The notes beneath the pieces are model-generated. The model did not search any database. It saw only the letters and a program-made list of their open reading frames with translations, and was not told where the DNA came from. 25,514 bases of DNA, taken from the IMG/VR virus record IMGVR_UViG_3300032087_004293, positions 1 through 25,514 of that record; one strand, written 5' to 3'. Positions 5,695 through 25,489 of the stretch are shown here, piece after piece; position 1 is the stretch's first letter; the number at the start of each line of letters is the position of its first letter. Origin of the DNA: a virus. The translations under genes and the position numbers were made by a program.

Positions 5695-5739
5695 AAAGGA
5701 AGGAAAAAAATAAAAAAAATAATCTAGAAAAAATAAATT

Positions 5740-5748
5740 GGTATGATA
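5740..5748 (+). promoter_or_regulatory. Variant late-motif site (GGTATGATA)
   Basis: This differs at one fixed position (A for C) from the GGNANNCTA motif of the virion genes, and lies 23 bases before the ATG at 5772. Confidence 0.35.
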
Positions 5749-6623: not shown

Positions 6624-6764
6624 ATGAATATTGAAAAACAAAGGAGAAAGCTTGTTTCCTTGATGGAAAAAGCTCAGAATGCACTGAGTCGTGAAGAATC
6701 TAAAGAAATCCTTAAAAAAGTAAAGAAAGTGGGGAAGAAAATCGCCAAGAATTCGGAAATCTAG
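6624..6764 (+). CDS. Small basic helical protein (46 aa)
   Basis: The protein begins MNIEKQRRKLVSLMEKAQNA and ends in a Lys-rich helix (KKVKKVGKKIAKNSEI). An AGGAG lies 9 bases before this ATG; an ATG two codons earlier is possible but too close to the Shine-Dalgarno. The frame is open to 6549, but that part is promoter region. It is strongly basic, so DNA or RNA binding or a packaged internal protein is plausible. It is the first gene of the rightward virion module. Confidence 0.7.
   Translation: MNIEKQRRKLVSLMEKAQNALSREESKEILKKVKKVGKKIAKNSEI
6755..6763 (+). promoter_or_regulatory. Late-motif site GGAAATCTA
   Basis: Matches GGNANNCTA, 13 bases before the first ATG of the 6777 gene and overlapping the end of the previous gene. 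Confidence 0.5.
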
Positions 6765-6776
6765 GCTAGGGATTTA

Positions 6777-7283
6777 ATGGCTATGGCTAGTCCGTTACTG
6801 GAATATTGGAACGGGCGGGTTAAAGTCACCAGCCAGGGTACTGTAACGATTACAAATGGACGCCCAGTCGTTTCCGGCGGCACGGAATATATCATCAAGT
6901 GTTATGTAAAACGTATCCAATATACTGGTGTAACAAGTGGATCTAAACCTGTTCCGCTTGCTTCTCAATTAGAAGGCAGAATGCTGCCTGGTGCGAGTGG
7001 AGATAAGTTTTATTATCGTGGTTTTGCCCTTCAGAAAGCCGCCCTAGGCGGTGAAAATTGGTTGGGTGATCTAACTGGTCTAACGTTTACAAACATCACC
7101 GCACAGGAGCAGTTCTTGCTGCCTGGAACTGAAATTGACTTCAAGTTTGGTGATGATCCAGTGATGAACGCTAAGATCGAAAGATCTAGTGGTCAATTTG
7201 GTGGTCAAGGGATTGATGAAATCCTGTATCCCGCTCTTGGCGGCGTTGAAATTCAAATTACTGCATCTGATCTGCAAAACTAA
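6777..7283 (+). CDS. Putative head-tail neck protein (168 aa)
   Basis: The protein is beta-rich, with an N-terminal LLEYWNGRVKVTSQGTVTIT segment and a middle segment with AGRMLPGASG-like turns. It sits directly before an HK97 gp10-like protein and the tail chaperone, where head-closure or adaptor proteins usually lie. Its 3' end overlaps the next ATG by one base (TAATG). The assignment is mainly positional; no motif is diagnostic. A second ATG at 6783 is an alternative start. Confidence 0.6.
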   Translation: MAMASPLLEYWNGRVKVTSQGTVTITNGRPVVSGGTEYIIKCYVKRIQYTGVTSGSKPVPLASQLEGRMLPGASGDKFYYRGFALQKAALGGENWLGDLTGLTFTNITAQEQFLLPGTEIDFKFGDDPVMNAKIERSSGQFGGQGIDEILYPALGGVEIQITASDLQN

Positions 7284-7852
7284 TGCCTCAAAAGCGAGTA
7301 AAATCAACGGGCGCCAAGGTTTTAAAGAGCCTTATGAACGCAACCAAGGATATTGAAAGGGAGCTTGGCACGGTAGAAACAGGCATTACAGTCAAGTCTT
7401 CTGCTGATTTTACAGATCTCAAGACACTTACTAGGAAATTTCCGAAAGCAACTAGAGCCGCTCATATCGAAACACTAAAGTTCTTAGGCGAAGAGCTGGA
7501 ATTAGCGCTGGGTATCGCCATGGAATCTAAGGTTTGGCAGAACAATGATTGGCCATATGGTGATGGAGACATCGTTCAGTTTGGCAATTTGAGAGATTCG
7601 TTAAAGATTGAGACTACGGAGGAGGAGATCAGGATTTCTTACATGGAGGAATATGCAGCCATTGTTCACTTTGGTGGATATATTCATCTTTATGGTAATG
7701 TTCATAGTCGTGTTTACATGCCGGCAAGACCGTGGATTAAGTCTGTGCTGTTAGGTGGAGGTCCAGTTGATAAATTTGACTTTACTGGACTTTATCGCAA
7801 AAAATTCGACTCATTAATGAAGCAATTGCTCAAAGGTGAAGGGGTCGAGTAA
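7283..7852 (+). CDS. Tail completion / neck protein, HK97 gp10-like (189 aa)
   Basis: The helical N-terminal half (DLKTLTRKFPKATRAAHIET) is followed by a YAAIVHFGGYIHLYG...RVYMPARPWI stretch at about residues 124-152. Such an IVHFGG...MPARPWI segment is typical of phage virion-morphogenesis and HK97 gp10-type tail-completion proteins, which sit at the neck and join head to tail. The gene overlaps the upstream gene by one base, and the chaperone gene follows. The family call is from recognition of the motif pattern. Confidence 0.75.
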   Translation: MPQKRVKSTGAKVLKSLMNATKDIERELGTVETGITVKSSADFTDLKTLTRKFPKATRAAHIETLKFLGEELELALGIAMESKVWQNNDWPYGDGDIVQFGNLRDSLKIETTEEEIRISYMEEYAAIVHFGGYIHLYGNVHSRVYMPARPWIKSVLLGGGPVDKFDFTGLYRKKFDSLMKQLLKGEGVE

Positions 7853-7857
7853 GGTTT

Positions 7858-7866
7858 GGTATCCTA
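7858..7866 (+). promoter_or_regulatory. Late-motif site GGTATCCTA
   Basis: Matches GGNANNCTA, 19 bases before ATG 7886, right after the stop of the gp10-like gene. Confidence 0.5.
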
Positions 7867-7885
7867 TGCCGCTCGTAGATGAGTT

Positions 7886-8443
7886 ATGGCAGTTCTTCCT
7901 TTTGTTGTTCAACCCCGAAAGAATACTGAAAAGGTCTTAATCGGTAACGAAGAAGTCGGGATTATTGAAATTGAGCGCAAGGGTTATTTAACTGTTGCAG
8001 AGAAATCTTTCGTCGAAAGTGTGACGCAAGGCTCTGACGGCGTTTCGTCAATGGTGTTTCTAGCTAATAAGATCGCTTCTGCTAATAAGACCACTCCTGA
8101 AAAGGCATATGCAGCTATTACTAACGCAATGTCTGGCGAGACAGGTACTAAGCTTGCAAATGTAGTTATTCAAAACTACGCAGAAGAACTTGCTGAGGTT
8201 ACTTCAAAGCTTTCTGAGTCGATGCAACGCCGACAGATTGCTGCTGCTACTGTGCTGCTTAAGACGCGAGTTGCATCAGACTGGGCGATCGAAGACACCA
8301 TGGATCTTGATCCTGAGCTGTTAGCTGAAATTGCAAGTCTTTATGATCAGGAAGAGCAACGTATTCCTGTAGCTAAAAAGACTCCGCAAGAGGAGGCTGA
8401 AGAAGTCGTGGGAAAGTCAAAAGAGGAGAATGGGGACAAGTAA
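7886..8443 (+). CDS. Tail assembly chaperone, G-like (185 aa)
   Basis: A folded N-terminal region (VLIGNEEVGIIEIERKGYLT; then helices with LSESMQRRQIAAATVLLKTR) is followed by an acidic tail (PELLAEIASLYDQEEQR) and a Lys/Glu-rich end. This matches the general form of siphovirus tail assembly chaperones, which bind the tape measure protein while tube subunits assemble around it. A G GGA AAG slippery heptamer near the 3' end, in the correct phase, leads into a long overlapping -1 frame (to 9048), as in lambda G/GT. The longer product would be about 387 aa. The gene is placed before the tube gene rather than between tube and tape measure. Confidence 0.82.
   Translation: MAVLPFVVQPRKNTEKVLIGNEEVGIIEIERKGYLTVAEKSFVESVTQGSDGVSSMVFLANKIASANKTTPEKAYAAITNAMSGETGTKLANVVIQNYAEELAEVTSKLSESMQRRQIAAATVLLKTRVASDWAIEDTMDLDPELLAEIASLYDQEEQRIPVAKKTPQEEAEEVVGKSKEENGDK
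8410..8416 (+). promoter_or_regulatory. -1 ribosomal frameshift site GGGAAAG
   Basis: In the zero frame the heptamer reads G GGA AAG, identical in sequence and phase to the known lambda G/GT site. Slipping back one base gives GGG AAA and continues in an open frame to 9048. AGAGGAG (8421-8427) downstream does not show an obvious strong pseudoknot. Confidence 0.85.
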
Positions 8444-9048
8444 CCCCATTTGATGAGATCTTTTGGGAACTGAAATCTTTATATCCAGGCGATAAAGAAT
8501 TTGCATTAAATAGTTACAGTTCATTGCCGTATGAATATGTGCTAGATGCATATGAAAAAGGGCTGAAAAATCATAAGCTGCGGCTTCATCAAGATGAGGC
8601 TCCAGTCGCTTTGTTGACTTCACTTTTTGCTAACGCGAATAGGGACAGCAAGAAGCAGAAAAAGCCATATACAATGAATGACTTTTTTCTGTATCAACCT
8701 ACAGATGAGAGAGATGTCCCGACGGGCGTCTATGGTGCGGCAGCGATGAAATTGATCGAAAACAAAGAATTCCCTGGATGGGCTTATACCTTCTATAAAG
8801 ATTTGAAGGCGTCTGCTGACGGCCCAGCTCCTGATCTCCTTGCCTTCAGTCATAAGCATGCAATCTTGCTCGCTCCAATGATTAGGGATGAGACAGTTAA
8901 GGGTATGTTAATCAGCGAAGATATCGTATCAGATCAAGTAATTGAGATGCGGTCAAATACAGGATTGACTTTAAAATTAAAAATTCCTCCTCAAAAAATA
9001 AGGTACATAGCAGAAGAAAACGTAGAGCTAGAGATTGTTAGTGATTGA
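8416..9048 (+). CDS. Tail assembly chaperone, T-domain reached by -1 frameshift
   Basis: The frame is open from inside the upstream gene and has no good initiation site of its own. It reads VKRGEWGQVTPFDEIFWELK just after the slip, then a helical domain (YEYVLDAYEKGLKNHKLRLH) and a beta-rich C-terminus ending VELEIVSD. It adds about 210 residues to the first 177 of the G-like protein. In lambda the T part binds tube subunits and the G part binds the tape measure protein; the same is inferred here. The 3' end overlaps the antisense HNH gene by 11 bases. Confidence 0.78.
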   Translation, partial: VKRGEWGQVTPFDEIFWELKSLYPGDKEFALNSYSSLPYEYVLDAYEKGLKNHKLRLHQDEAPVALLTSLFANANRDSKKQKKPYTMNDFFLYQPTDERDVPTGVYGAAAMKLIENKEFPGWAYTFYKDLKASADGPAPDLLAFSHKHAILLAPMIRDETVKGMLISEDIVSDQVIEMRSNTGLTLKLKIPPQKIRYIAEENVELEIVSD

Positions 9049-9445
9049 CAAAGACAGCTCCATCGTAAACATCGCCTGAATTAGGGATGTTGCTTAGTTC
9101 AGTTGTCATCCATTCGCGAATTCGATATTCGCGTTCCATCGTGTAACATTCTTGCCGGCGGAACCATTCAACCCAGTCTTCAGACCCTTTTGAATGATTA
9201 CAGCGTTTGCAGGCTGGGATGCAATTTGAGGTTTTATCTTCACCACCTTTAGCGCGTGGCTTGACATGATCTAGTGTCAATGATGCGTCGTCAATTGGTG
9301 GAGTCCCGCAATATGCACAACAGTTACACCAGGCATCTTTAATTGATTGACGCCACAAATGCTTAGCTTCTTTTCTTGTCATTGCCTCAAGATTGAAAAG
9401 GTAATCGTGGATCCTTTGCCGGATCGGGAAGTCCTTTGCGATCAT
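9038..9445 (-). CDS. Free-standing HNH endonuclease (135 aa)
   Basis: Zinc-finger pairs are CAYC (Cys43, Cys46) and CKRC (Cys79, Cys82). The HNH core is LTLDH (Asp59-His60), Asn74, and NHSKG (Asn83-His84). A basic Trp-containing C-terminal helix (SEDWVEWFRRQE) follows. Such genes act as homing endonucleases or nicking enzymes and spread between phages. It lies antisense between the chaperone and the tail-terminator gene, overlapping the former, with no promoter visible. The insertion may explain the unusual spacing here. A packaging-associated HNH role is less likely, because no terminase is nearby in the window. Confidence 0.88.
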   Translation of the reverse strand: MIAKDFPIRQRIHDYLFNLEAMTRKEAKHLWRQSIKDAWCNCCAYCGTPPIDDASLTLDHVKPRAKGGEDKTSNCIPACKRCNHSKGSEDWVEWFRRQECYTMEREYRIREWMTTELSNIPNSGDVYDGAVFVNH

Positions 9446-9538
9446 TGAGTATTTGTTGAGACTGAACCGCGAAGGAATGAGGCAAGTGGGCTTCTCATAA
9501 GCGCTTTAGCGGTTGTCTTCTTTATAGTTCCTGTGATG

Positions 9539-9547
9539 GGCAGACTA
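9539..9547 (+). promoter_or_regulatory. Late-motif site GGCAGACTA
   Basis: Matches GGNANNCTA, 21 bases before ATG 9569. The identical 9-mer recurs before the tape measure gene (10823). Confidence 0.55.
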
Positions 9548-9568
9548 GAAGCAGATTTTTAGAGCCAA

Positions 9569-10030
9569 ATGGCACAATCTTTTGCTACAACTCCGCAGAG
9601 GATTTATGACGTTTTGGCTAATGATGTAACCTTCGCCGGTTACCTAGGTACTTATACATTTTCCAATGGTAGTACAAGCAATTCGCTTGTTATTTTGACG
9701 CCCGGAGAGAAGCTCCCGCAGTTATCTTCTCAGGTTGGATTAGAGTGCATTATTCATGATTCTGGGGATGTAAGTAGAAAGGATTATGTTAATGATGTTT
9801 CTGATTTTTTAACTACTTGGAAGCTGTTTTTAATTGTGTGGGATGGAGCTACTGGAAGCGATCTAGATGCCGCTGTAAAGCGGATTATGCACCTGTTCTA
9901 TGGCAGTACATCTATCGAGACTTTAGCGACGGCTGAGGGCCTTGGAGCGCGTGTTCAGACGATGGTTATGATCCCAGAGAATGGCGGTTTGCATCAAGAT
10001 GCCGTCAATATTCTGGATTCTTTACCGTAG
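9569..10030 (+). CDS. Putative tail terminator protein (153 aa)
   Basis: The N-terminal helix (PQRIYDVLANDVTFAGYLGT) is followed by a strand-rich core (SNSLVILTPGEKLPQLSSQV; TTWKLFLIVWDGA) and a helix (GSDLDAAVKRIMHLFYG). This resembles the alpha/beta fold of tail terminator (gpU/gp17-like) proteins that cap the tube, which normally adjoin the tube gene as here. The sequence match is by general pattern and position, not a diagnostic motif. Confidence 0.6.
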   Translation: MAQSFATTPQRIYDVLANDVTFAGYLGTYTFSNGSTSNSLVILTPGEKLPQLSSQVGLECIIHDSGDVSRKDYVNDVSDFLTTWKLFLIVWDGATGSDLDAAVKRIMHLFYGSTSIETLATAEGLGARVQTMVMIPENGGLHQDAVNILDSLP

Positions 10031-10057
10031 GGGAATCAATAGTATTCCAGACCATTA

Positions 10058-10066
10058 GGAACACTA
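10058..10066 (+). promoter_or_regulatory. Late-motif site GGAACACTA
   Basis: Matches GGNANNCTA, 58 bases before ATG 10125, followed by a GC hairpin. The identical 9-mer precedes the scaffold gene. Confidence 0.55.
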
Positions 10067-10072
10067 CGTTAG

Positions 10073-10093
10073 TGGGGTGAATCCCCCATTTTT
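10073..10093 (+). terminator. Hairpin with T-run in the tail-tube leader
   Basis: TGGGG-TGAATC-CCCCA followed by TTTTT lies between the late-motif site and the tail-tube ATG. It may terminate upstream transcription or act as a 5'-leader element; similar hairpins occur before scaffold and capsid genes. Confidence 0.6.
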
Positions 10094-10124
10094 GCTTAGT
10101 TTTCAGCATTCTGGAAATTCACCC

Positions 10125-10772
10125 ATGGCTAACTATTCAGCCGCTTTTGGCTATAAATTCTACCTGCTTCCGCTTGCCTCTGATCAGGTCGACCTGGCTT
10201 TCACCGGCATCACCACCGGCACCGGTCTTCAGTCTGCCTCCACTGGCTTCCTGAAAGTTGACGACACCGTTGCTGGTGACGAAGGTAATCTTGCTGCCGA
10301 CAACGACACCATTGCATACAACAGCACCACCGGTATCTTTACCGTTGAGTCACAAGCTTATGCGATGGACGGCACGACTGCCACTGACAAGCCCCTCAAG
10401 CTGCTTGGTCTGACCAACGCTTCCCTGGAAACCGATACCTCCAGCGAAGACATCATCACCTATGACCGCACGACCAAGGGTTACAACACCAATATTGCAA
10501 CCACCAAGTCGTTCAGCATCTCCCTGGAAGGTGTGGCTGACTTCAAGAGTGCTGCTTATCAGGTGCTGCGCTTAACTGAAGCCAACACCGTTAACAACAG
10601 CCTCCGCGTGAAGTTTGCTCGTATTGGTCCTACCGGCACCGATGAAACTATCTACGGTTATGGCACCCTTGAGGGCTATTCTGAGTCGATCGAGGCGGGC
10701 TCCGTCGTTTCCTGGAGTGCTACCCTTAACGGCTATGGTCCATATGTCATCGACATCGACGCCAACGCCTGA
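10125..10772 (+). CDS. Major tail (tube) protein (215 aa)
   Basis: The start MANYSAAFGYKFYLLPLASD is preferred; the frame extends to 10077 through a hairpin. The protein is Thr/Ala/Gly-rich and beta-dominated, with a middle TYDRTTKGYNTNIATTKSFS segment followed by SLEGVADF, like TP901-1/lambda V-type tube proteins (pattern recognition). It forms the stacked rings around the tape measure protein. Codon choice (AAC, ACC, GGC, CGT, CTG) differs from neighbours and matches the capsid gene, as expected for a very highly expressed protein. It is flanked by hairpin terminators on both sides. Confidence 0.82.
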   Translation: MANYSAAFGYKFYLLPLASDQVDLAFTGITTGTGLQSASTGFLKVDDTVAGDEGNLAADNDTIAYNSTTGIFTVESQAYAMDGTTATDKPLKLLGLTNASLETDTSSEDIITYDRTTKGYNTNIATTKSFSISLEGVADFKSAAYQVLRLTEANTVNNSLRVKFARIGPTGTDETIYGYGTLEGYSESIEAGSVVSWSATLNGYGPYVIDIDANA

Positions 10773-10797
10773 TAATAGCTGACAAATTGACGAGAAG

Positions 10798-10819
10798 CCC
10801 CGCTACGGCGGGGTTTTTT
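10798..10819 (+). terminator. Rho-independent terminator (TACG loop)
   Basis: CCCCGC-TACG-GCGGGG followed by TTTTTT, 25 bases after the tail-tube gene. Confidence 0.92.
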
Positions 10820-10822
10820 CTT

Positions 10823-10831
10823 GGCAGACTA
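10823..10831 (+). promoter_or_regulatory. Late-motif site GGCAGACTA
   Basis: Matches GGNANNCTA, only 4 bases after the T-run of the preceding terminator and 24 bases before ATG 10856, a position that favours a promoter. Confidence 0.6.
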
Positions 10832-10855
10832 TTTTAGCTAATTCTGGCCATCAGA

Positions 10856-13800: not shown

Positions 13801-15112
13801 TAAAAAAGCTCAGGAACTTGGAGATGTTTATGGTAGAGTTTCAAACAATCTGAAAGGCGCATTTGATCAAGTTACCTCTAGCTTGAGCGGTGGAATTCAA
13901 AGTGCCGTCGGCTTGATTGATACTGTTGTTGAAACTGAAATTCGTGGATTAGAAAAAGGCGACAGAAAGAGAAAGCGCATTATCCTTCGGCAGTTAAAAG
14001 CTCAGGCGACTGCAATCCGAATAGAGGACAGCATTGCTCAATCTAAACTTCGGGTGCAAACTTTAATTGCAAAATCTGAAGCAAGGATTGCTCAATTCCG
14101 ACTTCAGGCAGAAGCAAGGATCGCAGAGGCTCGTGGTGAGACGAAGTTAGCTGCTGGATTAAGGGAAGCTGCTCAGTTCCAGAATCTAATTGTTGACAGT
14201 ATTGAGTATAGCTTTGAGATTGAAAGTAAAAGGCTTGAAATTGAAAGGCAGCGCAAAGAACAAATGTTGGTCAATAAAGGTCTTGAGGAGGGTATCGGGA
14301 GAAGTGCTACTCGCACGGCCAATGCAATTGGTGTCCAAAATACTAGTCTAAAGGAATCAGAAGCACAATTGAAATCGATGGAGGAAAAAGGAGATAAACT
14401 AGCCACCAGAATTGAAGACGGTGCTGAGAAAATGCAATCTTTTAAAGAAGATGCTAATAGAACTTCAGTTGAAGAAGGCGAAGAGACGGCAAGAGGAACA
14501 GCAGAAGCATTAGAAGCTGCTAAAGAGTATGCGAAAGAACTTGGCGGTAATTTTGAAGATACTTTAGTCAGGATGGCAGATGCAGAAGCAAGTGCCGCAA
14601 GGATGGAAAGTCATCTAAAAAACAGTGTTGAATTTGCCAACAAATTAGCGAGTACCATTACATCAGGTAATCCAGCCCGTGCAATGGGCGGTCCTGTTGA
14701 GTCCGGTCGGTCTTATCTTGTTAACGATGGCGGTGGACGGGAAGGTTTCCTGAGCAATTCTGGTAAGTTCAGCATGTTGCCGGCAGCAAGGAACATTAAC
14801 TGGACTGCTCCTAGTTCCGGTACTGTGATCCCTGCGAATTTAGTGAATCAATATCGCAATGCTCTTGCTGGTCAGGAAGTAAAAGTCTCTGGCGCTTCAA
14901 TTAAAACAAGTGATGCTCGTGCTAACAGCCTGTCGGCAAGCCTTGATTCTGGCAACCTAATCCAGCGGATGGCAGCAGTTATGGGCGCTTCTGGGGGTGA
15001 TCAACGAATCACTAATCACGTCACGATTCAAAGCCAGGAACCTGTTACTGATGCTTCTAAAATCATGACCAATGTCGCCCGCATGCGTCTTCGTCGTGGA
15101 GGAAATATCTGA
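10856..15112 (+). CDS. Tape measure protein (1418 aa)
   Basis: This is the longest gene. The N-terminal 180 residues are charged coiled coil. Residues about 190-370 match the tape-measure N-terminal domain pattern, with TLGLSTEQSGRYLEAFAQVL and GKLQAEELNQQISELDG-type segments. Hydrophobic Ala/Gly-rich stretches lie near 690-735, long Glu/Lys/Gln coiled coil spans about 760-1270, and a GGPVESGRSYLVNDGGGREG segment lies near residue 1280, common at tape-measure C-termini. The protein fills the tube lumen and sets tail length; at roughly 1.5 angstrom per residue the tail would be about 210 nm. The stop overlaps the next ATG (TGATG). Confidence 0.95.
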   Translation: MLSIPVVIGVQTGDIKNALDDLERGVNDALSKLIRKDNKITVEYFFDSNGNEVRRELDAVAAANRRVENERRRSIGGEKGSIGRAKAYIKQLERQRQEIKANTKEFYQLGASLFKAKADLRSLQGVQEGSTAALREQRADLIKLRDGVKRSSDQYRILTQRIAELDRQLGKSTPKVEKQFKLFSLAGKIAVAGAAFNSLSAAVRSVGNAASVYTQRQKEIEAFDLALKNVGFTQGQVSVTFNKAADIAGRLGAPLRQVEGLYKRMVPALQAVGASSEETDKFIEGISARTQTLGLSTEQSGRYLEAFAQVLSKGKLQAEELNQQISELDGSFRVQLADALNVTTQELNEMISRSEITADVFVDAVNRMANGTEELVKRVKEGRATIQQLQNLIEIIDTKNIENIGKALEPTIKSFLNIRLSFANFIKEFQKTKVFEVLVKIVNNTSKGLENFVFQILKLAEVLTNLLSPFASVIGVFADLDSFLGGGITQVLAYIATFALLSKGFSKLGGTFKDVTFRLNTFGDSFKKQLNTIKTTTTGVKRFRDTLMLLGKETGKTVLGLTGLRKAFFRSAGSAKVAGKEVQTFSFSAKKAAVNIRKFGRNLRKDLAGGLLALFNPITGAIALFTALADAIVQVFQAYGKGASAFDEYFRLVKEVNEENGNLVASNKKVAGSVEEEAGRVVAANNFQGASWAALASGVLVAGGALAFTIATAGAGTPALIAAGAALAGTAAAATKSGEAFARARNLSGFTDKMKEAAKVSDELASKIKGVNEIEDLRNGDLAEQISLTDGFIRTEKERAAQIEERIRSLKEEGSQNDALVESLQEELKSVQGGIQGYTALKNIQEDALATNIAFTNSSDKQTASVEVLAAALKKQQDAIDIGALQAQTAAIEKFGQSQADAGKLTAANLGVEIARSEQLVEASEKYIIELQRRQSVNRTVNLEEKKALEDLTKTVAQERQKQAQLQAQVKLAIVDAFEAGIKKAQELGDVYGRVSNNLKGAFDQVTSSLSGGIQSAVGLIDTVVETEIRGLEKGDRKRKRIILRQLKAQATAIRIEDSIAQSKLRVQTLIAKSEARIAQFRLQAEARIAEARGETKLAAGLREAAQFQNLIVDSIEYSFEIESKRLEIERQRKEQMLVNKGLEEGIGRSATRTANAIGVQNTSLKESEAQLKSMEEKGDKLATRIEDGAEKMQSFKEDANRTSVEEGEETARGTAEALEAAKEYAKELGGNFEDTLVRMADAEASAARMESHLKNSVEFANKLASTITSGNPARAMGGPVESGRSYLVNDGGGREGFLSNSGKFSMLPAARNINWTAPSSGTVIPANLVNQYRNALAGQEVKVSGASIKTSDARANSLSASLDSGNLIQRMAAVMGASGGDQRITNHVTIQSQEPVTDASKIMTNVARMRLRRGGNI

Positions 15113-18500: not shown

Positions 18501-18702
18501 TACTGCGGACTTTGTAATCAATTCGCGTTGTTTACTTTCTACTGAAATCGTCGAAACACTTGAGTGGGATTACGGTTTCTTCAAAGTCGCACTTGGCACT
18601 GATATTGATTTCGGTACATTTGCTGCCGGCAATACCTTTGACGCTGACTTTGGTACTATAACCGCTCCACAGCAGCCTGCACTGGCATCCTATGTGAGCT
18701 AA
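15514..18702 (+). CDS. Large tail-tip (hub/host-specificity) protein (1062 aa)
   Basis: GGAGG at 15504-15508 precedes the ATG, which directly follows the upstream stop. Residues 1-110 look like a hub domain (TTRGQIILGGTTDVFDF, PIGSRIDLWV, LTLEVGCSLAFIGERE). The middle is acidic and Asn/Tyr-rich. Residues about 670-770 contain VSMPLSFVPIKPIYNPVTE and RITEKMRAEVFNYYPFYPI, which may close the hub. The C-terminal 280 residues are Thr/Asp/Gly-rich beta repeats, probably a central fibre. By size and position after the distal tail gene this is the tail-tip protein contacting the host. No peptidase or lysozyme motif was found. Confidence 0.75.
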   Translation: MSYINTSAGVKIYINFTEATEYLIQGSLSDDSVYSSNIITTRGQIILGGTTDVFDFDRTKYPIGSRIDLWVKLDNGTTSRHPKSPLYIINSSTNVQDRTLTLEVGCSLAFIGEREDQYQAAVKSLFGSILDLNDLKSFQIDEYNLSTLSSYLACVGKAIYQDKYGHVQVLKAFGRDGLGAKRSGGKFTSFDKYTAISIESISESSIEPDIDAILVEAEFDVPILKEDSEEEENNNNTNRPEPLITSVTYRTVKAPSTSGSIVLGGGPNALTNQSNPNTGTIDSPSEWDGETIGYNYQVTGEMEAAERDVKEKVTSGRYVEYNGPGNQVSLEQTWEYSSAATWASTAVSNSLNLIIPQVNQGIEEINGLLQKCNQFLDKRDEQDQFLEDNSTNPDWLYYHYKGKAFYDQAQNYWAGLEDFVKAANRISTEYDGVYNLANVNETVYKYGPAGEVISEVSRSYVHPASREGAQSHNIYKSWTVVAGPTGIQTRFDLGYTVTWEETEIVNEGRLPGEDGRAEKFENDLFGVREEPLYLTSQTTKTYEYGSDWTTEIEEYIDYDDGTNNYRKESYSSSDSASPAQPDRIEDELTGENADYLDESSIDTGRDNADSPDLDEDRGGVLDDPTDYCIEKTEKEDHSFVVNIYNDPYRGSTDWFGKPSAYLKKVSMPLSFVPIKPIYNPVTETCSLNHLAATLSRYDDYIRRYAYVMAKKITGDNRGFRITEKMRAEVFNYYPFYPIQLSFQSANKGFYTRAASSSWVFDSENCICSFDCMVTGNTSATYFPDPSTKVVYIKTESATTLTNANLKLQSTTNKVKITSLPTTGTVTLSGANVSVGDEIDVSDITANNLVFTPSSGGTVKIDLTYQALDSNGATLSSIENIYPLDTSIIITPENYAADGGEFTANTSNNGFDCDGGNFDDATTNGGPLSMEAGDFDTGSTVSLPQPPLPSQATTANGDSDPENDFGVNVKDGDDTVIAVSTLPSDEGDFNGTLDINVTADFVINSRCLLSTEIVETLEWDYGFFKVALGTDIDFGTFAAGNTFDADFGTITAPQQPALASYVS

Positions 18703-18703
18703 T

Positions 18704-18712
18704 GGAAGCCTA
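18704..18712 (+). promoter_or_regulatory. Late-motif site GGAAGCCTA
   Basis: Matches GGNANNCTA, starting 1 base after the hub stop codon and 18 bases before ATG 18731. Confidence 0.55.
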
Positions 18713-18730
18713 CGCTGGATTGGTAAGTAG

Positions 18731-19144: not shown

Positions 19145-19398
19145 ACGACCTACTTAATACTTTAAAAGACACGAATCAAGCGAGTCGTATTGATGCGATT
19201 GAGAAATCTTATCAAGGCGATGGGACAGCACAATCAAACCATGTCGTAAAATGGAAAGGTTATGATACGAATGGAAGGAGTCTTGTTGAGGCTAATGGTA
19301 AGATTCACGCGGCAAAGAACTTAGGAAAAACGACTCCGAAAGCTGATCAAACTGTACTACTTAGGACCGGCAGAGGCATCAAAGTTATTGCTTATTGA
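19141..19398 (+). CDS. Small tail-adaptor domain protein (85 aa)
   Basis: An N-terminal helix (NDLLNTLKDTNQASRIDAIE) is followed by a compact domain with WKGYDTNGRSLVEANGKIHA and a basic beta end (TVLLRTGRGIKVIAY). The compact domain repeats in the N-terminus of the next protein (WQGYSTDGRAIVKQDGKFKA), so the two are paralogous modules. Coupling overlaps occur at both ends or nearly so. A role attaching or capping the fibre is inferred from this pairing. Confidence 0.65.
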   Translation: MNDLLNTLKDTNQASRIDAIEKSYQGDGTAQSNHVVKWKGYDTNGRSLVEANGKIHAAKNLGKTTPKADQTVLLRTGRGIKVIAY

Positions 19399-19400
19399 TC

Positions 19401-21263
19401 ATGGGATTAGAGGAAAATGTAAAAGCTTATGCAGATCAAGCTAGACAGATTCTGCTGGCTCGTCAGCTTAAAAGCGAAGAAACTAAAGCGGGTAAAGCGT
19501 ATTGGCAAGGATATTCAACAGACGGACGGGCTATTGTAAAACAGGATGGTAAATTCAAGGCGGTAAGAGTTGTTGGGAATGCGTCTGTCCCAAAAGATAA
19601 AGTTGTTTATATCGATGAAACAAATACAGTAGACGTTGGTTATGTTCGTAAAACTGAGGCAAGGCAAGAGCGTGTTGTTAAAAAGAATGAACCGCTGCCA
19701 CTTGTAAAACGACGCAGACCAGTAATTCTAGTTGATGAGGCAGATAAGCCTTTGGAAATTCCAGCTCATGGATTTCACGTTGTTGTTTATACAAAGAGGG
19801 TGCCGGAAACTGGACATGGCGCAGCCATGGCTGATGGTAACCAAATAAGTGCAGGAACTAGCCCAGACGTAGACGTAACGGGCACAATGGTAAGTCGATT
19901 TTTCAATCAAGGGTTTAAAGTGCCGGCATATCCAGCAACGACTTCAACATATGGAATTGTACTTCTATGTGCAGTTGTACTTGCCAGTAGTGGAACGACA
20001 CAGACTTGTAGCGCTTCAATTAGCGGAGAACAGGTAGATCTTAGTGTTGAAGCTACGTCAGCGCCAGGATTTCAGGACTGGGAAGAAGCGGAGACAGATC
20101 CGCTTTATTTTTACCAATCTGGTGCAAATAGGAATTATTTGTCATATACATATAGCAGAGATGCTGGTTCAGCAGGCCCTAATTATCAATTTGCAAGGGC
20201 TCAAGCTGCTGCAGAATATAGAACATTGCCTGATGCTATTTATTATTACGATATTGCAAATGGTAGCACTAGAGCCGTCAATCTAAATTTTTACTTTAGT
20301 GAAGATATTGTAGATCACGAAATTTGGCATAATTTTGTAACAAGAGAAGGGCAGAATTTAATTGCATACACTATTTTTTATGTAAGAACAGCTACAGTTG
20401 GATCTCCTGAGATAGTACCACCAGAAATTGATGGAGTCTATAATGATGGACAGATTAGTCATTGGTGGTTACATTTAAGATTTAACTTGACAACAGGTAA
20501 AAAGGAATCCAATAGGTCTGTTATTAGCACTAGGTATGATGGAACAGATTGGATTAGTTTTAACGATCGATTTATTGCTCGATATTCAATCTCAAATGGA
20601 TTAAACTTGCTTAATCTCAATTGCTTCTTTAGGGAAACAAGAGACGCTGAGCGATATGATAATCAAATGAGGCCAGATGTCTTTGATCGACCAGACGATC
20701 CAGATGTAAGTGGATTGTTCTCAAATGCTTTTGATGGCGACTGGTTGTCAAGTTGGTCAGGGGTAACTGGATCCGCCAATATTAATGATGTGCTTGGTTT
20801 GCTGCAGTGTTCTTACAAAAATGGACGATATTATCGCAATGCAGACAGTTTGATGCCTCTTTATTGGGATGGATCAGAGGGGACACAGCCATTTATTACT
20901 GAATACGAACCGCCGGAAAGCTCAAACTTTTATGATGGAGCAGGTGGTGCAGACAATGATATCTCAACCTTTCTCAGCGAATTAAACAACGATGGCACTA
21001 CTTCAACGTTTGCAGGTTTCTATGATGGCACTGCTGAAGGTGACTCTATGGACATAGCAAACTGGGTGCGTTATGGAAGAGCCTATGAATATAGAGATAC
21101 TGCATCAGGGGATGATGTAATGGGACGCTTTGGCCCCCCTGCAAATATTCAACTAACACAAGATGCAGAGGGCACTTTTAATCTCCCTGAATTTGTAGAT
21201 AGCAGACATGGAGAGCGGATGCATAGAGATACATGGAGTTCTTTCGTGCCAGAAGCTCAATAA
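19401..21263 (+). CDS. Tail fibre / tip protein with N-terminal adaptor domain (620 aa)
   Basis: ATG at 19401 lies 3 bases after the previous stop; a TTG at 19395 would add two residues. Residues 1-80 repeat the domain of the 85-aa neighbour. A basic linker (RRRPVILVDEADKPLEIPAH) is followed by a large Tyr/Trp/Asn/Asp-rich beta region with no fibre repeats, typical of a globular receptor-binding or enzymatic domain. HEIWH occurs at about residues 306-310, an HExxH form; whether it is a real zinc site is open. A structural or host-recognition role is inferred from location. Confidence 0.68.
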   Translation: MGLEENVKAYADQARQILLARQLKSEETKAGKAYWQGYSTDGRAIVKQDGKFKAVRVVGNASVPKDKVVYIDETNTVDVGYVRKTEARQERVVKKNEPLPLVKRRRPVILVDEADKPLEIPAHGFHVVVYTKRVPETGHGAAMADGNQISAGTSPDVDVTGTMVSRFFNQGFKVPAYPATTSTYGIVLLCAVVLASSGTTQTCSASISGEQVDLSVEATSAPGFQDWEEAETDPLYFYQSGANRNYLSYTYSRDAGSAGPNYQFARAQAAAEYRTLPDAIYYYDIANGSTRAVNLNFYFSEDIVDHEIWHNFVTREGQNLIAYTIFYVRTATVGSPEIVPPEIDGVYNDGQISHWWLHLRFNLTTGKKESNRSVISTRYDGTDWISFNDRFIARYSISNGLNLLNLNCFFRETRDAERYDNQMRPDVFDRPDDPDVSGLFSNAFDGDWLSSWSGVTGSANINDVLGLLQCSYKNGRYYRNADSLMPLYWDGSEGTQPFITEYEPPESSNFYDGAGGADNDISTFLSELNNDGTTSTFAGFYDGTAEGDSMDIANWVRYGRAYEYRDTASGDDVMGRFGPPANIQLTQDAEGTFNLPEFVDSRHGERMHRDTWSSFVPEAQ

Positions 21264-21272
21264 GAACAGTAA

Positions 21273-21281
21273 GGAATACTA
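21273..21281 (+). promoter_or_regulatory. Late-motif site GGAATACTA
   Basis: Matches GGNANNCTA, 19 bases before GTG 21301. Confidence 0.55.
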
Positions 21282-21300
21282 GTTCAGCGTTTTCAAGCTT

Positions 21301-22650
21301 GTGGCACTTCAATTCAGGAGAGGGACTGCTGCAAATAGGACGGCGGATAACTTTACTCCTGTAGTTGGCGAACCTATTTTCGAGACTGATACAAATAAGC
21401 TTTACATTGGTGATGGAAGCACCGTAGGTGGAGTTGACATTTACAATGGCTTAAATCTTGCCAATGTTAATGATGTCACGTTGATTACGGAGACAATTGA
21501 GAATCCAGACACATATTCAATTGCCACTAATGTTGTAACATTAGTTTTTGACGCGGGGCATAGCTTTGTCGCAAATCAAAGCATTACAATTGCAAACTCA
21601 AGTGTCGCCGCATTGAATGGAACTTATACAGTTACAAGTGTTACGGCTACGGATGTTGTAATTCCAACTACGGGGCAAGCCGATATTGGTTCGACGGCTC
21701 TTACAGCAGATGTTAATGCAAACATTGTAAATGGCAGAGTTTTAGCGTGGGATTCTGCAGATTCTGCATGGAAAGATACAGATCCTAATGCTGCTCTTGA
21801 AATCGTTGGAGACACGTCACCTCAACTAGGTGGAAACCTCGATACAAATGGAAACGATATTGTTAGCACAGGAACAAATGATATTGACTTTGATCCTGCC
21901 GTCGGGCAAAACGTCGTTTTCAGAGGCAACGCGACTGACGGGTCTGGTCGAATTGTATTAAATTGCGAGCAAAATACTCATGCAATTACAATTCAAGGTC
22001 CAGCTCATGCTGCTGCTGCTAATTACACTTTAGTCCTCCCAACAACTGATGGAGATGCTAATCAATACTTAGTCACTGATGGCAGTGGTAATTTATCCTG
22101 GCAGACACCATCAAGTGAACTTCTCTATACACGATTCAGATACAATTCTGCCGGCACACCAGGTTCTGTTAGTGCGGGTTCTCAATTGCTAGGCGTTGAT
22201 GCAGCGCTAGGTAGCTGGTCGGAGATGACCTTTGCTAATAATGCAACCAATGGAACAAATATTGGATCTGCTGATTTCAACCCAACATTAACAGGAATCA
22301 ATACGACTACTGGCATCTTTGATAATATTCCTGTTGGCGTATACAGGATTGACGTTGCCTTGCAGTTGACAATTAACAATTTAGCAACAAATAGCTATCT
22401 GCGTTATAACCATTTGGTACAGGCTCGAAATGGAGCAACAGTTATTTCTGCTATTGGGCAAGATTTTAACTTTACAACTACTGGAACCGCTCCGGGTTCT
22501 GCTGTAACACAAGACGTTAAGTATTCTCTAACTGTTCATCTTGAGAGCACGACTCTTGCGAACAATGATGTTCGGATCTTACTAGACCAAGATCAAGGTC
22601 CAGATTATTTCTGTAGCGTTGGATTCATTACATTTACAAAGATCGCTTGA
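21301..22650 (+). CDS. Tail fibre with MTD_N-like N-terminus (449 aa)
   Basis: GTG start. The beginning MALQFRRGTAANRT, then PVVGEPIFETDTNKLYIGDG, is the pattern seen at the N-termini of many phage fibres, including the major tropism determinant N-terminal domain of Bordetella phage BPP-1. The middle is Thr/Val/Asn-rich beta, with a QGPAHAAAANYTLVLPTTDG segment common in cyanophage fibres. The last 170 residues look like a C-terminal beta-sandwich head. It probably binds the host surface. No reverse transcriptase or template repeat is present in the window. Confidence 0.8.
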   Translation: MALQFRRGTAANRTADNFTPVVGEPIFETDTNKLYIGDGSTVGGVDIYNGLNLANVNDVTLITETIENPDTYSIATNVVTLVFDAGHSFVANQSITIANSSVAALNGTYTVTSVTATDVVIPTTGQADIGSTALTADVNANIVNGRVLAWDSADSAWKDTDPNAALEIVGDTSPQLGGNLDTNGNDIVSTGTNDIDFDPAVGQNVVFRGNATDGSGRIVLNCEQNTHAITIQGPAHAAAANYTLVLPTTDGDANQYLVTDGSGNLSWQTPSSELLYTRFRYNSAGTPGSVSAGSQLLGVDAALGSWSEMTFANNATNGTNIGSADFNPTLTGINTTTGIFDNIPVGVYRIDVALQLTINNLATNSYLRYNHLVQARNGATVISAIGQDFNFTTTGTAPGSAVTQDVKYSLTVHLESTTLANNDVRILLDQDQGPDYFCSVGFITFTKIA

Positions 22651-22652
22651 TA

Positions 22653-22661
22653 GGAACACTA
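22653..22661 (+). promoter_or_regulatory. Late-motif site GGAACACTA
   Basis: Matches GGNANNCTA, 2 bases after the fibre stop codon and 33 bases before the scaffold ATG. Confidence 0.58.
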
Positions 22662-22673
22662 GCGCGTTCATTT

Positions 22674-22690
22674 AGGGAGTGATTCCCTTT
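22674..22690 (+). promoter_or_regulatory. Leader hairpin of the scaffold gene
   Basis: AGGGA-GTGAT-TCCCT followed by TT, ending 4 bases before the scaffold ATG. The loop GTGAT and the GGG/CCC stem recur in the capsid-gene leader. It could hide or space the start codon, or act as an attenuator. Confidence 0.55.
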
Positions 22691-22694
22691 TACC

Positions 22695-23432
22695 ATGTCG
22701 GAAGAAAACACCAAAGTCTCTGAGATGGAGACTGGCGGGCAAGATTCTGCACCCCAGGGATCTACTGAAGATAAATCTCAGTACAGTCCTGATGAGGTAG
22801 CAAACCTCGTCAAAGCACTGCGTTCTGAACGTGAGGCTCGTAAAACTTATGAGCGTCAATTTAAAGAAAAGGAAGCGCAGTTGATGAAGTTGAAGGATGT
22901 CGACCTTGATCGATATCAACAACTTGAGGCTGATGCTGCACGTGCTGCAGAAATTGAGTCACGTTATGGCGAGACCATCCAGGCAATCGAGGAGAAGTAT
23001 GGCCGGCAGACCGCTGAGGCGGAAGGCAAGGCTAAACAGGCGGAACAACAGATCAACGAATTCAAGAAGCGGTATGCCTTGGAGAAGGTATTCATTTCTG
23101 CTGGAGGTCGAACAGATGCTGCGGATGGCGTATCGTTCTTTGATATGTTTGCTGAGCAACTGAGTGGTCGGTTCCGTCAGGAGCCTAATGGCGCGATTAC
23201 TGTTGTTGATGCCCAAGGTGATCCCATTCTGGATAACGAGTCTGGCAAGCGTATTTCCCCTGAGGATTTTGTTGCTAGTTTCAAAACTCACCCTGTCTAT
23301 GGCACCTTCTTCAAAGGTGTTAAGGGGTCTGGAGCTGGACTCAACTACGCCGGCACTGATGCAAATGGCATGCCAGTAGAGGACTTGACGAGTCTTTCTA
23401 GGGAAGAATTGTTCCTGAAAGCATTTAGTTGA
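22695..23432 (+). CDS. Capsid scaffolding protein (245 aa)
   Basis: A polar N-terminus (MSEENTKVSEMETGGQDSAP) is followed by long charged coiled coil at about residues 35-135 (KALRSEREARKTYERQFKEK onwards), then a C-terminal segment with FFDMFAEQLSGRFR and PEDFVASFKTHPVYGTFF and a final SLSREELFLKAFS helix. Long coiled coil plus a position just before the major capsid gene is the standard scaffold arrangement. It acts inside the procapsid and is then expelled or degraded; no separate protease gene is visible in the window. A strong terminator follows. Confidence 0.85.
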   Translation: MSEENTKVSEMETGGQDSAPQGSTEDKSQYSPDEVANLVKALRSEREARKTYERQFKEKEAQLMKLKDVDLDRYQQLEADAARAAEIESRYGETIQAIEEKYGRQTAEAEGKAKQAEQQINEFKKRYALEKVFISAGGRTDAADGVSFFDMFAEQLSGRFRQEPNGAITVVDAQGDPILDNESGKRISPEDFVASFKTHPVYGTFFKGVKGSGAGLNYAGTDANGMPVEDLTSLSREELFLKAFS

Positions 23433-23437
23433 TACAC

Positions 23438-23459
23438 AAGCCCCGAAAGGGGCTTTTTT
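23438..23459 (+). terminator. Rho-independent terminator (GAAA loop)
   Basis: AAGCCCC-GAAA-GGGGCTT continuing as a T-run, 5 bases after the scaffold stop codon. Confidence 0.93.
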
Positions 23460-23480
23460 ATTGGGAAGAATAGAAGTTTC

Positions 23481-23489
23481 GGAATTATA
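23481..23489 (+). promoter_or_regulatory. Variant late-motif site GGAATTATA
   Basis: Differs from GGNANNCTA at one fixed position (A for C). It lies 21 bases after the scaffold terminator and about 120 bases before the capsid ATG, giving a long leader. Confidence 0.4.
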
Positions 23490-23537
23490 TGTTAGAAAGC
23501 ACCCGGTTTTGACTGGCCGTGATGGTTAGCAGGCAGG

Positions 23538-23570
23538 GTGTTCCGAGTTAGGGCGTGATGCCCTGGACAC
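23538..23570 (+). promoter_or_regulatory. Structured leader of the capsid gene
   Basis: The inner hairpin AGGGC-GTGAT-GCCCT (23550-23564) is enclosed by GTGT(T)CC pairing with GGACAC with a bulge. The inner hairpin matches that of the scaffold leader with a compensating A-T to C-G change next to the loop. Confidence 0.55.
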
Positions 23571-23610
23571 GTTTCACCTTTCCTTTGTTAACCACAGGAG
23601 TTTCATTCCA

Positions 23611-24513
23611 ATGGCCCTTAATCTTTCCGAGGCTAAAAAGCACTCTCGGAACCCCCAGGAACTGGCAATCGTTACCGAACTGTCTGCTGGTCCTCTGCTG
23701 AGCGTCCTCCCCTTCCGTGAAATCCAAGGCAACGGCCTGTTCTGGAAGCGTGAGGAGTCCCTCGGTGACGTGGGTTTCCGTAACTACAACGCTAGCTACA
23801 CCGAGACCTACGGTGAAGTGAGCCAACAGTCTGAAAGCCTCCGTCTGTTCGGTGGCGACATCAAGATTGACAAGGCAATTCTTGACCTTGAAGGTGGCGA
23901 ATCCCGCGCTTATCAGGTGCAGTCCAAGACCCGTGCAATGCGTCTGGCTTGGGAATCCCTGTTCATCAACGGTGACTCCAACCAATCTCCTTCTGAGTTT
24001 GACGGTCTGGCTGCTCGCCTGCCTGCCGCTGACTTTGCAACCAACTCTCAGGTGATCCGCAACGCTTCCTCCGCTGCGACCCTGGACCTCGGTGCTCTTG
24101 ACGAAGCTATCGATGCTGTGGATGCCAACGGCGGCACCAAGTATCTGGTGATGTCGAAGTCTGCCCGTCGTGCCCTGACCGTCAAGGCTCGTGCTTCGGC
24201 TCAGATTGATATCGCTCGTAACGAGTTCGGCTACCAGCAAATGGTGTATGCCGGCCTGCCCGTGATCGAACTGGATCGCGACCACCAGAACGTGGCTATC
24301 CTTGATGCCACCCCTGCTGATCAGTCCATCTATGTCGTCACCTTCGGCAACGACCTGCTGACCGGTATTCAGAACGGCGGCGTCCAGGTCCGTGAGCTGG
24401 GTGAGTCCTTCTCCACCCCTCAAATGATCACTCGTGTTGAGTGGTATTGCGGTCTGGCACTGGTTAATGGTCGCGCTGCTGCTCGCCTGACCAACGTTGA
24501 CGCTACTGCTTGA
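23611..24513 (+). CDS. Major capsid protein, HK97-fold type (300 aa)
   Basis: AGGAG lies 10 bases upstream of the ATG. The N-terminal helix (MALNLSEAKKHSRNPQELAI) is followed by LSVLPFREIQGNGLFWKREE and GDVGFRNYNASYTE, which resemble the N-arm and E-loop region of short HK97-fold capsid proteins of non-cleaved type. Later segments (KYLVMSKSARRALTVKARAS, NEFGYQQMVYAGLPVIELD) fit the P- and A-domains. The length is typical for capsids without a delta domain. Codon use is strongly biased to C-ending codons, like the tail tube gene. Flanked by terminators, it forms its own unit. Confidence 0.9.
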   Translation: MALNLSEAKKHSRNPQELAIVTELSAGPLLSVLPFREIQGNGLFWKREESLGDVGFRNYNASYTETYGEVSQQSESLRLFGGDIKIDKAILDLEGGESRAYQVQSKTRAMRLAWESLFINGDSNQSPSEFDGLAARLPAADFATNSQVIRNASSAATLDLGALDEAIDAVDANGGTKYLVMSKSARRALTVKARASAQIDIARNEFGYQQMVYAGLPVIELDRDHQNVAILDATPADQSIYVVTFGNDLLTGIQNGGVQVRELGESFSTPQMITRVEWYCGLALVNGRAAARLTNVDATA

Positions 24514-24541
24514 TTTAGCTAACATCAGCTAGCGAGACATC

Positions 24542-24567
24542 AAGGGGCTTCGCCCCCCTTTTTTTTT
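24542..24567 (+). terminator. Rho-independent terminator
   Basis: GGGGC-TTC-GCCCC with further flanking pairing, then nine T, about 30 bases after the capsid stop codon. Confidence 0.92.
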
Positions 24568-24575
24568 GTGTAATT

Positions 24576-24584
24576 GGGAACCTA
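24576..24584 (+). promoter_or_regulatory. Late-motif site GGGAACCTA
   Basis: Matches GGNANNCTA, 8 bases after the capsid terminator T-run and 59 bases before ATG 24644. Confidence 0.55.
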
Positions 24585-24643
24585 ATACAGAACCAAGTCG
24601 TCACCTGTTGGACGTGGGTTTGTAAATCTTTCTTTTTAGTATC

Positions 24644-24994
24644 ATGGCTGCACGCTCTTCGGGGATGTTCCCCCGCGAGAAGTTTGATCTTGACGCAAAC
24701 TTCGCTCTGACCACTTCTGCTGTTACTCAGGGTGTGACCCTGGCTAACATCAAGACCATCCGCGTCATCGTTCTTGGCGCTGCAAGTATTGACAACGCTG
24801 GCACCAACAAGGTGACCGTTGATGTTGGCAACCAAACCGTTGACTTCAACCTGGCTGACCTGGACGAAAACGGCACCGGCATTGCCCACCTGCGTGGTGC
24901 TCTGTGCGACGGCGACAACCAAGCTTTCTATACCCTGGGCGGCACCGCTACTGTCAGCGGCGTGTTCCTGGATATGGTTGACAACGTCGGCTGA
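24644..24994 (+). CDS. Small head protein, possible capsid decoration protein (116 aa)
   Basis: The protein begins MAARSSGMFPREKFDLDANF. It is beta-rich and Thr/Val/Asp-rich, with a TIRVIVLGAASIDNAGTNKV strand region and a VSGVFLDMVDNVG end. It lies directly after the capsid gene, has the same high-expression codon bias and its own motif and terminators, so it is likely an abundant virion protein. A decoration or capsid-stabilising role is inferred from position; no family was recognised. Confidence 0.65.
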   Translation: MAARSSGMFPREKFDLDANFALTTSAVTQGVTLANIKTIRVIVLGAASIDNAGTNKVTVDVGNQTVDFNLADLDENGTGIAHLRGALCDGDNQAFYTLGGTATVSGVFLDMVDNVG

Positions 24995-25007
24995 TTTTAA
25001 TCCTTAC

Positions 25008-25016
25008 GGAATAATA
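25008..25016 (+). promoter_or_regulatory. Variant late-motif site GGAATAATA
   Basis: Differs from GGNANNCTA at one fixed position, 29 bases before ATG 25046, with a terminator-like hairpin between. Confidence 0.4.
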
Positions 25017-25017
25017 G

Positions 25018-25042
25018 GGGTGGCTTAGTGTCACCCTTTTTT
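25018..25042 (+). terminator. Hairpin with T-run before the 82-aa gene
   Basis: GGGTG, a 9-base loop, CACCC, then TTTTTT. It ends 3 bases before ATG 25046, so it is either the terminator of the 24644 gene or a leader element. Confidence 0.65.
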
Positions 25043-25045
25043 ATT

Positions 25046-25294
25046 ATGCATTTACCTAAGTTGCCTACCGTCTTTGTCAAGGGTGGCGAAGAGCGCAAGG
25101 CGTTTTTTACTGTTCAGGCTCGTGAGCTGATTGCCGCCGGCTGGGTTGAAAAGGGCACTGAAGCACCTAAGCCTGTTGTAAAAGAAGAGCCTAAGGTTGA
25201 GGCGCCTGCAGAAGAGCCTGCTGTTGAAGAACCTGTTGCTGAGGAAAAGCCCAAGACTGTGCGTCGTCGCACTACCAAAAAGGTTGAAGAATGA
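25046..25294 (+). CDS. Small protein with Lys/Glu/Pro-rich tail (82 aa)
   Basis: MHLPKLPTVFVKGGEERKAF opens a compact domain with ARELIAAGWVEKG, followed by a low-complexity tail of alternating Glu, Pro, Lys, Ala and Val and a basic RRRTTKK end. A GTG at 25028 would extend it through the hairpin and is less likely. Such small globular-plus-charged-tail proteins are common beside phage capsid genes. The function is unknown; it is coupled to the next gene by ATGA. Confidence 0.7.
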   Translation: MHLPKLPTVFVKGGEERKAFFTVQARELIAAGWVEKGTEAPKPVVKEEPKVEAPAEEPAVEEPVAEEKPKTVRRRTTKKVEE

Positions 25295-25476
25295 TGGACG
25301 ATATTCAGTATCTAAAGGGTCCACGTTATATTGATGGCGTCAACATTGATGCTGATATTATTGCCGACGAGCCCGTAGTTACTGTTCGTCAAATTAATGA
25401 TCCTGTAAATGATGGGAGCTTGGGTAAACCTACTTATGCTCCTGGGTCTATGAATAAAGACGGTACGCCATTGTAA
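25291..25476 (+). CDS. Small hypothetical head-region protein (61 aa)
   Basis: MMDDIQYLKGPRYIDGVNID opens a short, acidic, probably extended protein with a Gly/Pro-rich end. ATGA overlap with the previous gene implies coupling; a second ATG at 25294 is equally possible. No motif is visible. Confidence 0.6.
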   Translation: MMDDIQYLKGPRYIDGVNIDADIIADEPVVTVRQINDPVNDGSLGKPTYAPGSMNKDGTPL

Positions 25477-25480
25477 AAGC

Positions 25481-25489
25481 GGAAACCTA
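25481..25489 (+). promoter_or_regulatory. Late-motif site GGAAACCTA
   Basis: Matches GGNANNCTA, 18 bases before the ATG at 25508, suggesting that another virion gene starts at the window edge. Confidence 0.5.

Follow-up and report, generated by a model that had tools for sequence, protein, structure and literature searches.

The nine-base motif GGNANN(C/A)TA, found before the virion genes in a stretch of viral DNA of 25,514 bases (the whole stretch analysed, hereafter the window), is almost certainly a true late promoter signal. We estimate a probability of roughly 80% that it is the late promoter common to a lineage of marine cyanobacterial siphophages and is read by a SigF-like sigma factor of the phage. 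The motif would act as the single-element extended −10 promoter of the virion genes, and the host RNA polymerase core would be reprogrammed by a phage SigF-like (group 3) sigma that has kept regions 2 and 3 and has no recognisable region 4. The holoenzyme would recognise the element and start RNA approximately 5–7 nt after the last A, and many short late units would each have a start of their own, in many cases immediately behind a terminator.

The window covers the whole of its IMG/VR record. The complete genomes of relatives span 71–108 kb compared with 25.5 kb here, and the window is therefore very probably a genome fragment. Its capsid protein shares 71–73% identity with those of Synechococcus siphophages S-CBS2 and S-CRES1-3 and 50% identity with that of Prochlorococcus phage P-SS2; the window phage is a relative of these viruses. 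The region of 6.5–25.5 kb constitutes a virion module with recognisable genes for tail completion, the major tail protein, the tape measure, the scaffold and the capsid. The elements and associated features are listed in Table 1.

Table 1. Putative promoter elements and associated features of the window.
Feature	Position	Strand	Basis or remark
Putative late promoter element GGAAATCTA, gene 6777	6755..6763	+	Exact match; 22 nt before ATG; overlaps the stop codon of the preceding ORF
Putative late promoter element GGTATCCTA, gene 7886	7858..7866	+	Exact match; placement
HNH endonuclease gene	9038..9445	-	Opposite-strand insertion between virion genes
Putative late promoter element GGCAGACTA, gene 9569	9539..9547	+	Exact match; placement
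Minus-strand copy GGAATACTA	10040..10048	-	Back-to-back with 10058; such pairs recur in relatives
Putative late promoter element GGAACACTA, major tail protein gene	10058..10066	+	Exact match; placement
Putative late promoter element GGCAGACTA, tape measure gene 10856	10823..10831	+	Exact match
Putative late promoter element GGAAGCCTA, gene 18731	18704..18712	+	Exact match; placement
Putative late promoter element GGAATACTA, gene 21301	21273..21281	+	Exact match; placement
Putative late promoter element GGAACACTA, scaffold gene 22695	22653..22661	+	Invariant in 5 aligned relatives
Intrinsic terminator upstream of the putative capsid promoter	23438..23460	+	
Possible second variant element GGAAGAATA, capsid gene	23464..23472	+	Kept in most of 50 relatives, though less well than 23481
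Putative variant element GGAATTATA (A at position 7), major capsid gene 23611	23481..23489	+	50 aligned relatives
Capsid mRNA leader, conserved helix and inner hairpin (about 23499-23541)	23490..23610	+	Covariation
Intrinsic terminator after the capsid gene, shortly before element 24576	24542..24567	+	
Putative late promoter element GGGAACCTA, gene 24644	24576..24584	+	39 aligned relatives, mostly GGGAACCTA, GGAAACATA or similar; preceded by terminator 24542-24560
Putative variant element GGAATAATA, gene 25046	25008..25016	+	Near-invariant in 37 relatives
Putative late promoter element GGAAACCTA, gene 25509	25481..25489	+	Exact match; placement

All ten exact plus-strand sites (GGNANNCTA) reported in the earlier note were recovered at their coordinates, and three further matches in the module had been overlooked, namely, 14951, 18684 and, on the minus strand, 10040. 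The match at 14951 lies inside the tape-measure gene, and that at 18684 lies inside the upstream gene and is not kept in four relatives; both look like chance and were dismissed as promoters. The one-mismatch forms at 23481 (GGAATTATA) and 25008 (GGAATAATA) proved genuine, with strong conservation across 50 (23481) and 37 (25008) aligned relatives, so that position 7 of the motif may be C or A. The raw number of matches in the window was 16 compared with 9.5 expected, and 3 of 100 shuffles were equally high; counts were dismissed as sufficient proof because this enrichment is weak. Placement was decisive, as the earlier note had argued. In the virion module, a start codon lies 22–68 nt downstream of 11 of the 12 plus-strand sites (18684 being included solely through its position 20 nt before 18704) and of neither of the two minus-strand sites, and the same placement test on 400 permuted patterns gave a mean of 0.26 and a maximum of 3. 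An unbiased scan of gapped 6-mers (8–10 wide) upstream of the virion genes ranked GG.A..CTA first, with presence in 10 of 19 upstream regions against 7 for the runner-up. The distance previously put at 18–24 bases is correct at six sites when counted from the end of the motif to the start codon; the remaining sites have gaps of 13, 33, 58 and 59. As had been claimed, virion genes devoid of the motif overlap the gene before them or abut it.

Several sites showed local features. The major tail protein gene starts at 10125, with a GTG at 10077 also possible, and a terminator-like hairpin (10071–10090) lies just 3′ of the element at 10058. The element at 10823 is immediately 3′ of a G+C-rich hairpin and T-run. 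The position of 18704 is occupied by GGAAGACTA or GGAAAACTA in four relatives, and blocks of nucleotide similarity with several relatives begin 3–6 nt from the element at 21273.

Across 130 aligned sites, the information was restricted to GG-A--CTA, with A or C favoured at positions 3 and 6, T preceding GG and a weak purine preference at positions 14–15, a candidate start. No conserved −35 or upstream element was detected in these sites. Sigma70-type matches (TTGACA/TATAAT, 16–18 nt spacing) numbered 21 in the virion module, below the 32.7 expected from shuffles. With a consensus of GGNANNMTA, the motif matches neither the sigma70 boxes nor the T4-type late box, in agreement with the first description; readings as sigma70 promoters or as TATAAATA found no support in the aligned sites and sigma70 counts.

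Start-codon placement was scored in the window, S-CBS2 and S-CRES3. In the virion regions, an annotated start is found no more than 70 nt downstream of 25 of 30 sites in S-CBS2 (mostly at 27–34 nt) and of 23 of 25 sites in S-CRES3. The non-virion parts displayed little excess, with 4 of 8 (S-CBS2) and 2 of 7 (S-CRES3) sites before starts versus 0.6–0.7 for permuted patterns. P-SS2 contains 19 plus-strand and 3 minus-strand matches in the 100 kb covered. At 80 capsid-gene loci of relatives (1 Mb), 580 plus and 59 minus matches were counted; permuted patterns averaged 241 plus-strand matches at the same loci and reached 534; the signal at these loci is therefore the strand bias of 10:1, not the number of matches. 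When one position was relaxed at a time, every fixed base mattered, and A at position 7 was among the best-tolerated substitutes (353 plus, 139 minus). Orthologous sites are also kept at 22653 and 24576 (5 and 39 aligned relatives). The motif is rare within genes and nearly always lies on the coding strand, contrary to the equal frequency inside genes that the earlier note had named as evidence against a promoter; the preference of that note for a late promoter is supported by the recurrence of the motif before virion genes of the annotated relatives that carry the sigma. A chance or compositional artefact, to which the mildly high raw count in the window could be ascribed, has a negligible probability given where the sites lie, their strand bias, the top rank of the motif and its conservation in relatives, and is refuted by the placement, the bias at the 80 loci and the leader spacing described below.

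The capsid element is located approximately 120 nt from the start codon, and a conserved RNA leader lies in between. The stem of this leader begins 7–12 nt after the element in 78 of 79 relatives, compared with a chance rate of 6.5% (the count uses the relaxed pattern GGNANNHT, and 75 fit GGNANNMTA); the remaining locus, where the leader was missed by the anchor, shows GGTAACCTA there by eye. This near-fixed spacing links the element to the place where the RNA begins and not to the start codon, which speaks for a promoter. The earlier note had left room for a signal at the RNA level, either a processing site or a translation enhancer near the start codon, which would suit the narrow modal distance to the start codon (27–34 nt) and the strand specificity of the motif. 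Such a signal fits poorly with a start-codon distance that varies and with a capsid element positioned relative to the leader helix. In addition, 11.7% of sites, compared with 1.0% of control sites, have a terminator ending no more than 30 nt before them, minus-strand copies cluster back-to-back with plus-strand ones in the fashion of divergent promoters (copies 10–19 nt leftward are over-represented), and the motif resembles a known cyanobacterial −10 element. We consider an RNA-level signal very improbable.

The helix and inner hairpin of the capsid leader are backed by compensatory changes, with 96% of cells paired compared with 31–44% in slid controls. In the window (23490–23610) and in relatives (L009, L024, L028, L078 and others), the leader comprises an outer helix and an inner hairpin with a (U/A)GA loop, both supported by covariation, and likely a second similar hairpin (GGGCGUGAUGCCC). 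An Rfam search of the window, including the leader, returned zero matches. The leader is possibly a regulatory or stabilising RNA. At L135 (17498), L145 (16282) and L157 (16379), back-to-back elements are followed by a leader with GGCG(A/C)GA(U/C)GCC hairpins of the capsid-leader type.

Opposite-strand back-to-back pairs spaced 13–18 nt apart were observed at 10040–10066 in the window, 38440–38464 in S-CRES3 and 38358–38381 in S-CRES2; in the latter two phages, the minus-strand copy precedes a minus-strand HNH endonuclease gene. Terminator-like hairpins with a 5′ arm beginning within or directly after an element were found at 25008–25038 in the window, where the hairpin (25016–25038) begins at the last base of the element, and at 32942 and 33353 in S-CBS2 and 60675 and 61093 in S-CRES3. 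RNA started at these elements would lack part of the hairpin, and read-through RNA would carry it. Promoter–terminator overlap was dismissed as a general rule (4.1% versus 2.6% in controls) and appears to be a local curiosity.

The window fragment encodes no sigma gene. The earlier note had suggested that a phage sigma might be found elsewhere, and a SigF-like sigma indeed co-occurs with the motif in relatives. In a tblastn search of 50,697 phage records, the gene of this group 3 sigma was detected in S-CBS2, S-CRES1-3 and P-SS2 only, with weak partial matches elsewhere, and it follows terL in the annotation tables of those phages; the protein is gp077 in S-CBS2 and ORF003 in P-SS2. The SigF-like sigma is also encoded at 67 viral-contig loci and shares contigs with the capsid genes closest to that of the window (L009/L154 and L012/L155). 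A scan of genome contigs for cellular relatives of the sigma yielded one contig only, from a MAG labelled Proteobacteria. In whole records with the sigma, the plus/minus counts of the motif were, for example, 38/5, 32/5, 30/3, 20/3 and 36/7, and two sigma-bearing contigs stored in the opposite orientation gave 9/20 and 2/23. Records lacking the sigma were not clearly biased (S-CBS1, 1/0; S-CBS3, 0/0; S-CBS4, 6/9; P-SSP7, 7/4; Mwe-JY26, 18/13) or were intermediate (Syn5, 6/0; T4-like S-PM2, 48/25 in 196 kb); the latter two indicate that a mild strand bias is possible without the sigma.

The alignment of 27 sigmas revealed strong conservation of regions 2 and 3 and a variable C-terminus. Pfam recognised region 2 only. 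SigF was the top NCBIfam match of four phage proteins, the matched stretch mostly stopping before region 4, at scores of 73–83 bits, far under the cut-off of 261. The C-terminal profile gave zero matches against solved sigmas. In the predicted model (pLDDT 83, pTM 0.45), helices account for regions 2 and 3, the linker is poorly predicted and the C-terminus forms three helices; the top fold matches of the model were mostly sigma factors.

A second phage sigma (S-CBS2 gp061 type) occurs on many of the same contigs and likewise has no Pfam region 4 match; the assignment of the motif to the SigF-like sigma therefore rests on SigF kinship and likeness to the SigJ element known as the J-Box. It is unlikely, though conceivable, that the late promoter is read by this RpoD-like sigma or by a host SigF or SigJ, and cyanobacterial hosts do possess SigF-type sigmas with a similar −12/−10 element. 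However, the second sigma of S-CBS2 best matches cyanobacterial RpoD (the S-CRES2 counterpart is ambiguous), the patterns before non-virion genes suit an RpoD-like sigma better, and group 3 sigmas are uncommon in Prochlorococcus according to the authors of the P-SS2 genome (PMC2784084). The SigF-like phage sigma remains the preferred candidate.

Upstream of the non-virion genes of S-CBS2 and S-CRES3, the leading patterns were TG.TA..CT and TG.TA..AT, which are extended −10 sequences and suggest a second promoter class in these phages. They were observed at 46–72 kb in S-CBS2 (L090) and 3–29 kb in S-CRES3 (L091). The site at 5740 of the window, previously listed as a one-mismatch copy of the motif, does read TTGGTATGATAGG and is an equally good match to TGnTAnnAT; positions 5739–5748 (TGGTATGATA) suit the extended −10 class and the late element alike, and the listing stands only in part. 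A division of labour between two sigmas is plausible. We would give even odds to a cascade of two sigmas without region 4, in which an RpoD-like sigma would read TGnTAnnCT before replication genes and a SigF-derived sigma would read GGnAnnMTA before virion genes. Each sigma would recognise just one extended −10 element, and the late system would derive from the cyanobacterial SigF/SigJ regulon.

The motif was compared with known systems. The features of a single-element late promoter were found here, namely, one coding-strand element before late genes, no conserved −35 and a phage sigma with no recognisable region 4, the sigma being known through relatives only. The phiEco32 sigma (gp36) has no region 4, recognises a single element and starts RNA 6–8 bp downstream (PMC8948821). 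The middle/late promoters of gp36 (tAATGTAtA) are similar to those proposed here in a phage sigma with no recognisable region 4 and the single element before late genes, whereas the element, sigma origin and host all differ, and the starts were mapped in phiEco32 and are predicted here. In T4, gp33 stands in for the domain 4 function lacking in the sigma-like protein (PMC2988020). T4 late promoters (gp55, with gp33 and clamp gp45) also possess a single −10-like element and a sigma-like protein lacking domain 4 function, but the window element differs from the TATAAATA late box and is not T4-like. The late promoters of phage 7-11 (GTAAtg-16-aCTA; sigma SaPh711_gp47) (PMC8948821) likewise form a late regulon driven by a phage sigma, with a −10 part ending in CTA; by contrast, the 7-11 promoter has an upstream part and the 7-11 sigma has region 4.

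In cyanobacterial SigJ promoters, an extended −10 GGGaAtacT (J-Box) is combined with a weak −35, and transcription starts 10 bp away from the centre of aAtacT (PMC6495340). Aligned one base in, GGaAtaCT is common to the J-Box and the window motif, whereas the latter lacks a fixed third G, has a fixed final A and would drive phage virion genes. The type 3 promoter of Synechocystis SigF has TAGGC at −32, and SigF needs GGTAA at −12 (PMC2758279). The GGNA part alone is common, and the 130 sites contain no conserved −32 element; the motif thus does not fit a type 3 promoter. Unlike the SigJ and SigF elements, the motif almost always has A at position 9, and its position 7 is nearly always C (or A). 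A promoter of a single-subunit RNA polymerase of SP6/T7 type, suggested by a loose CACTA likeness, was set aside because no such polymerase gene was noticed in the annotation tables of the relatives; S-CBS2 gp034 and P-SS2 gp085, annotated as 'RNA polymerase-like' or 'DNA-directed RNAP', are short and located in the tail region.

No earlier report of the motif was found in the open-access literature covered by the search. The P-SS2 genome paper of 2009 predicted only sigma70-type promoters (PMC2784084), and the motif is a candidate answer to a question dating from that time, the target of the divergent group 3 sigma. The sites would provide a late-gene regulon map for a widespread and little-studied group of marine cyanobacterial viruses, and the motif may serve as a marker of late genes in metagenomic contigs. 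The putative sigma–promoter pair is compact and may be suitable for structural study of extended −10 recognition without region 4.
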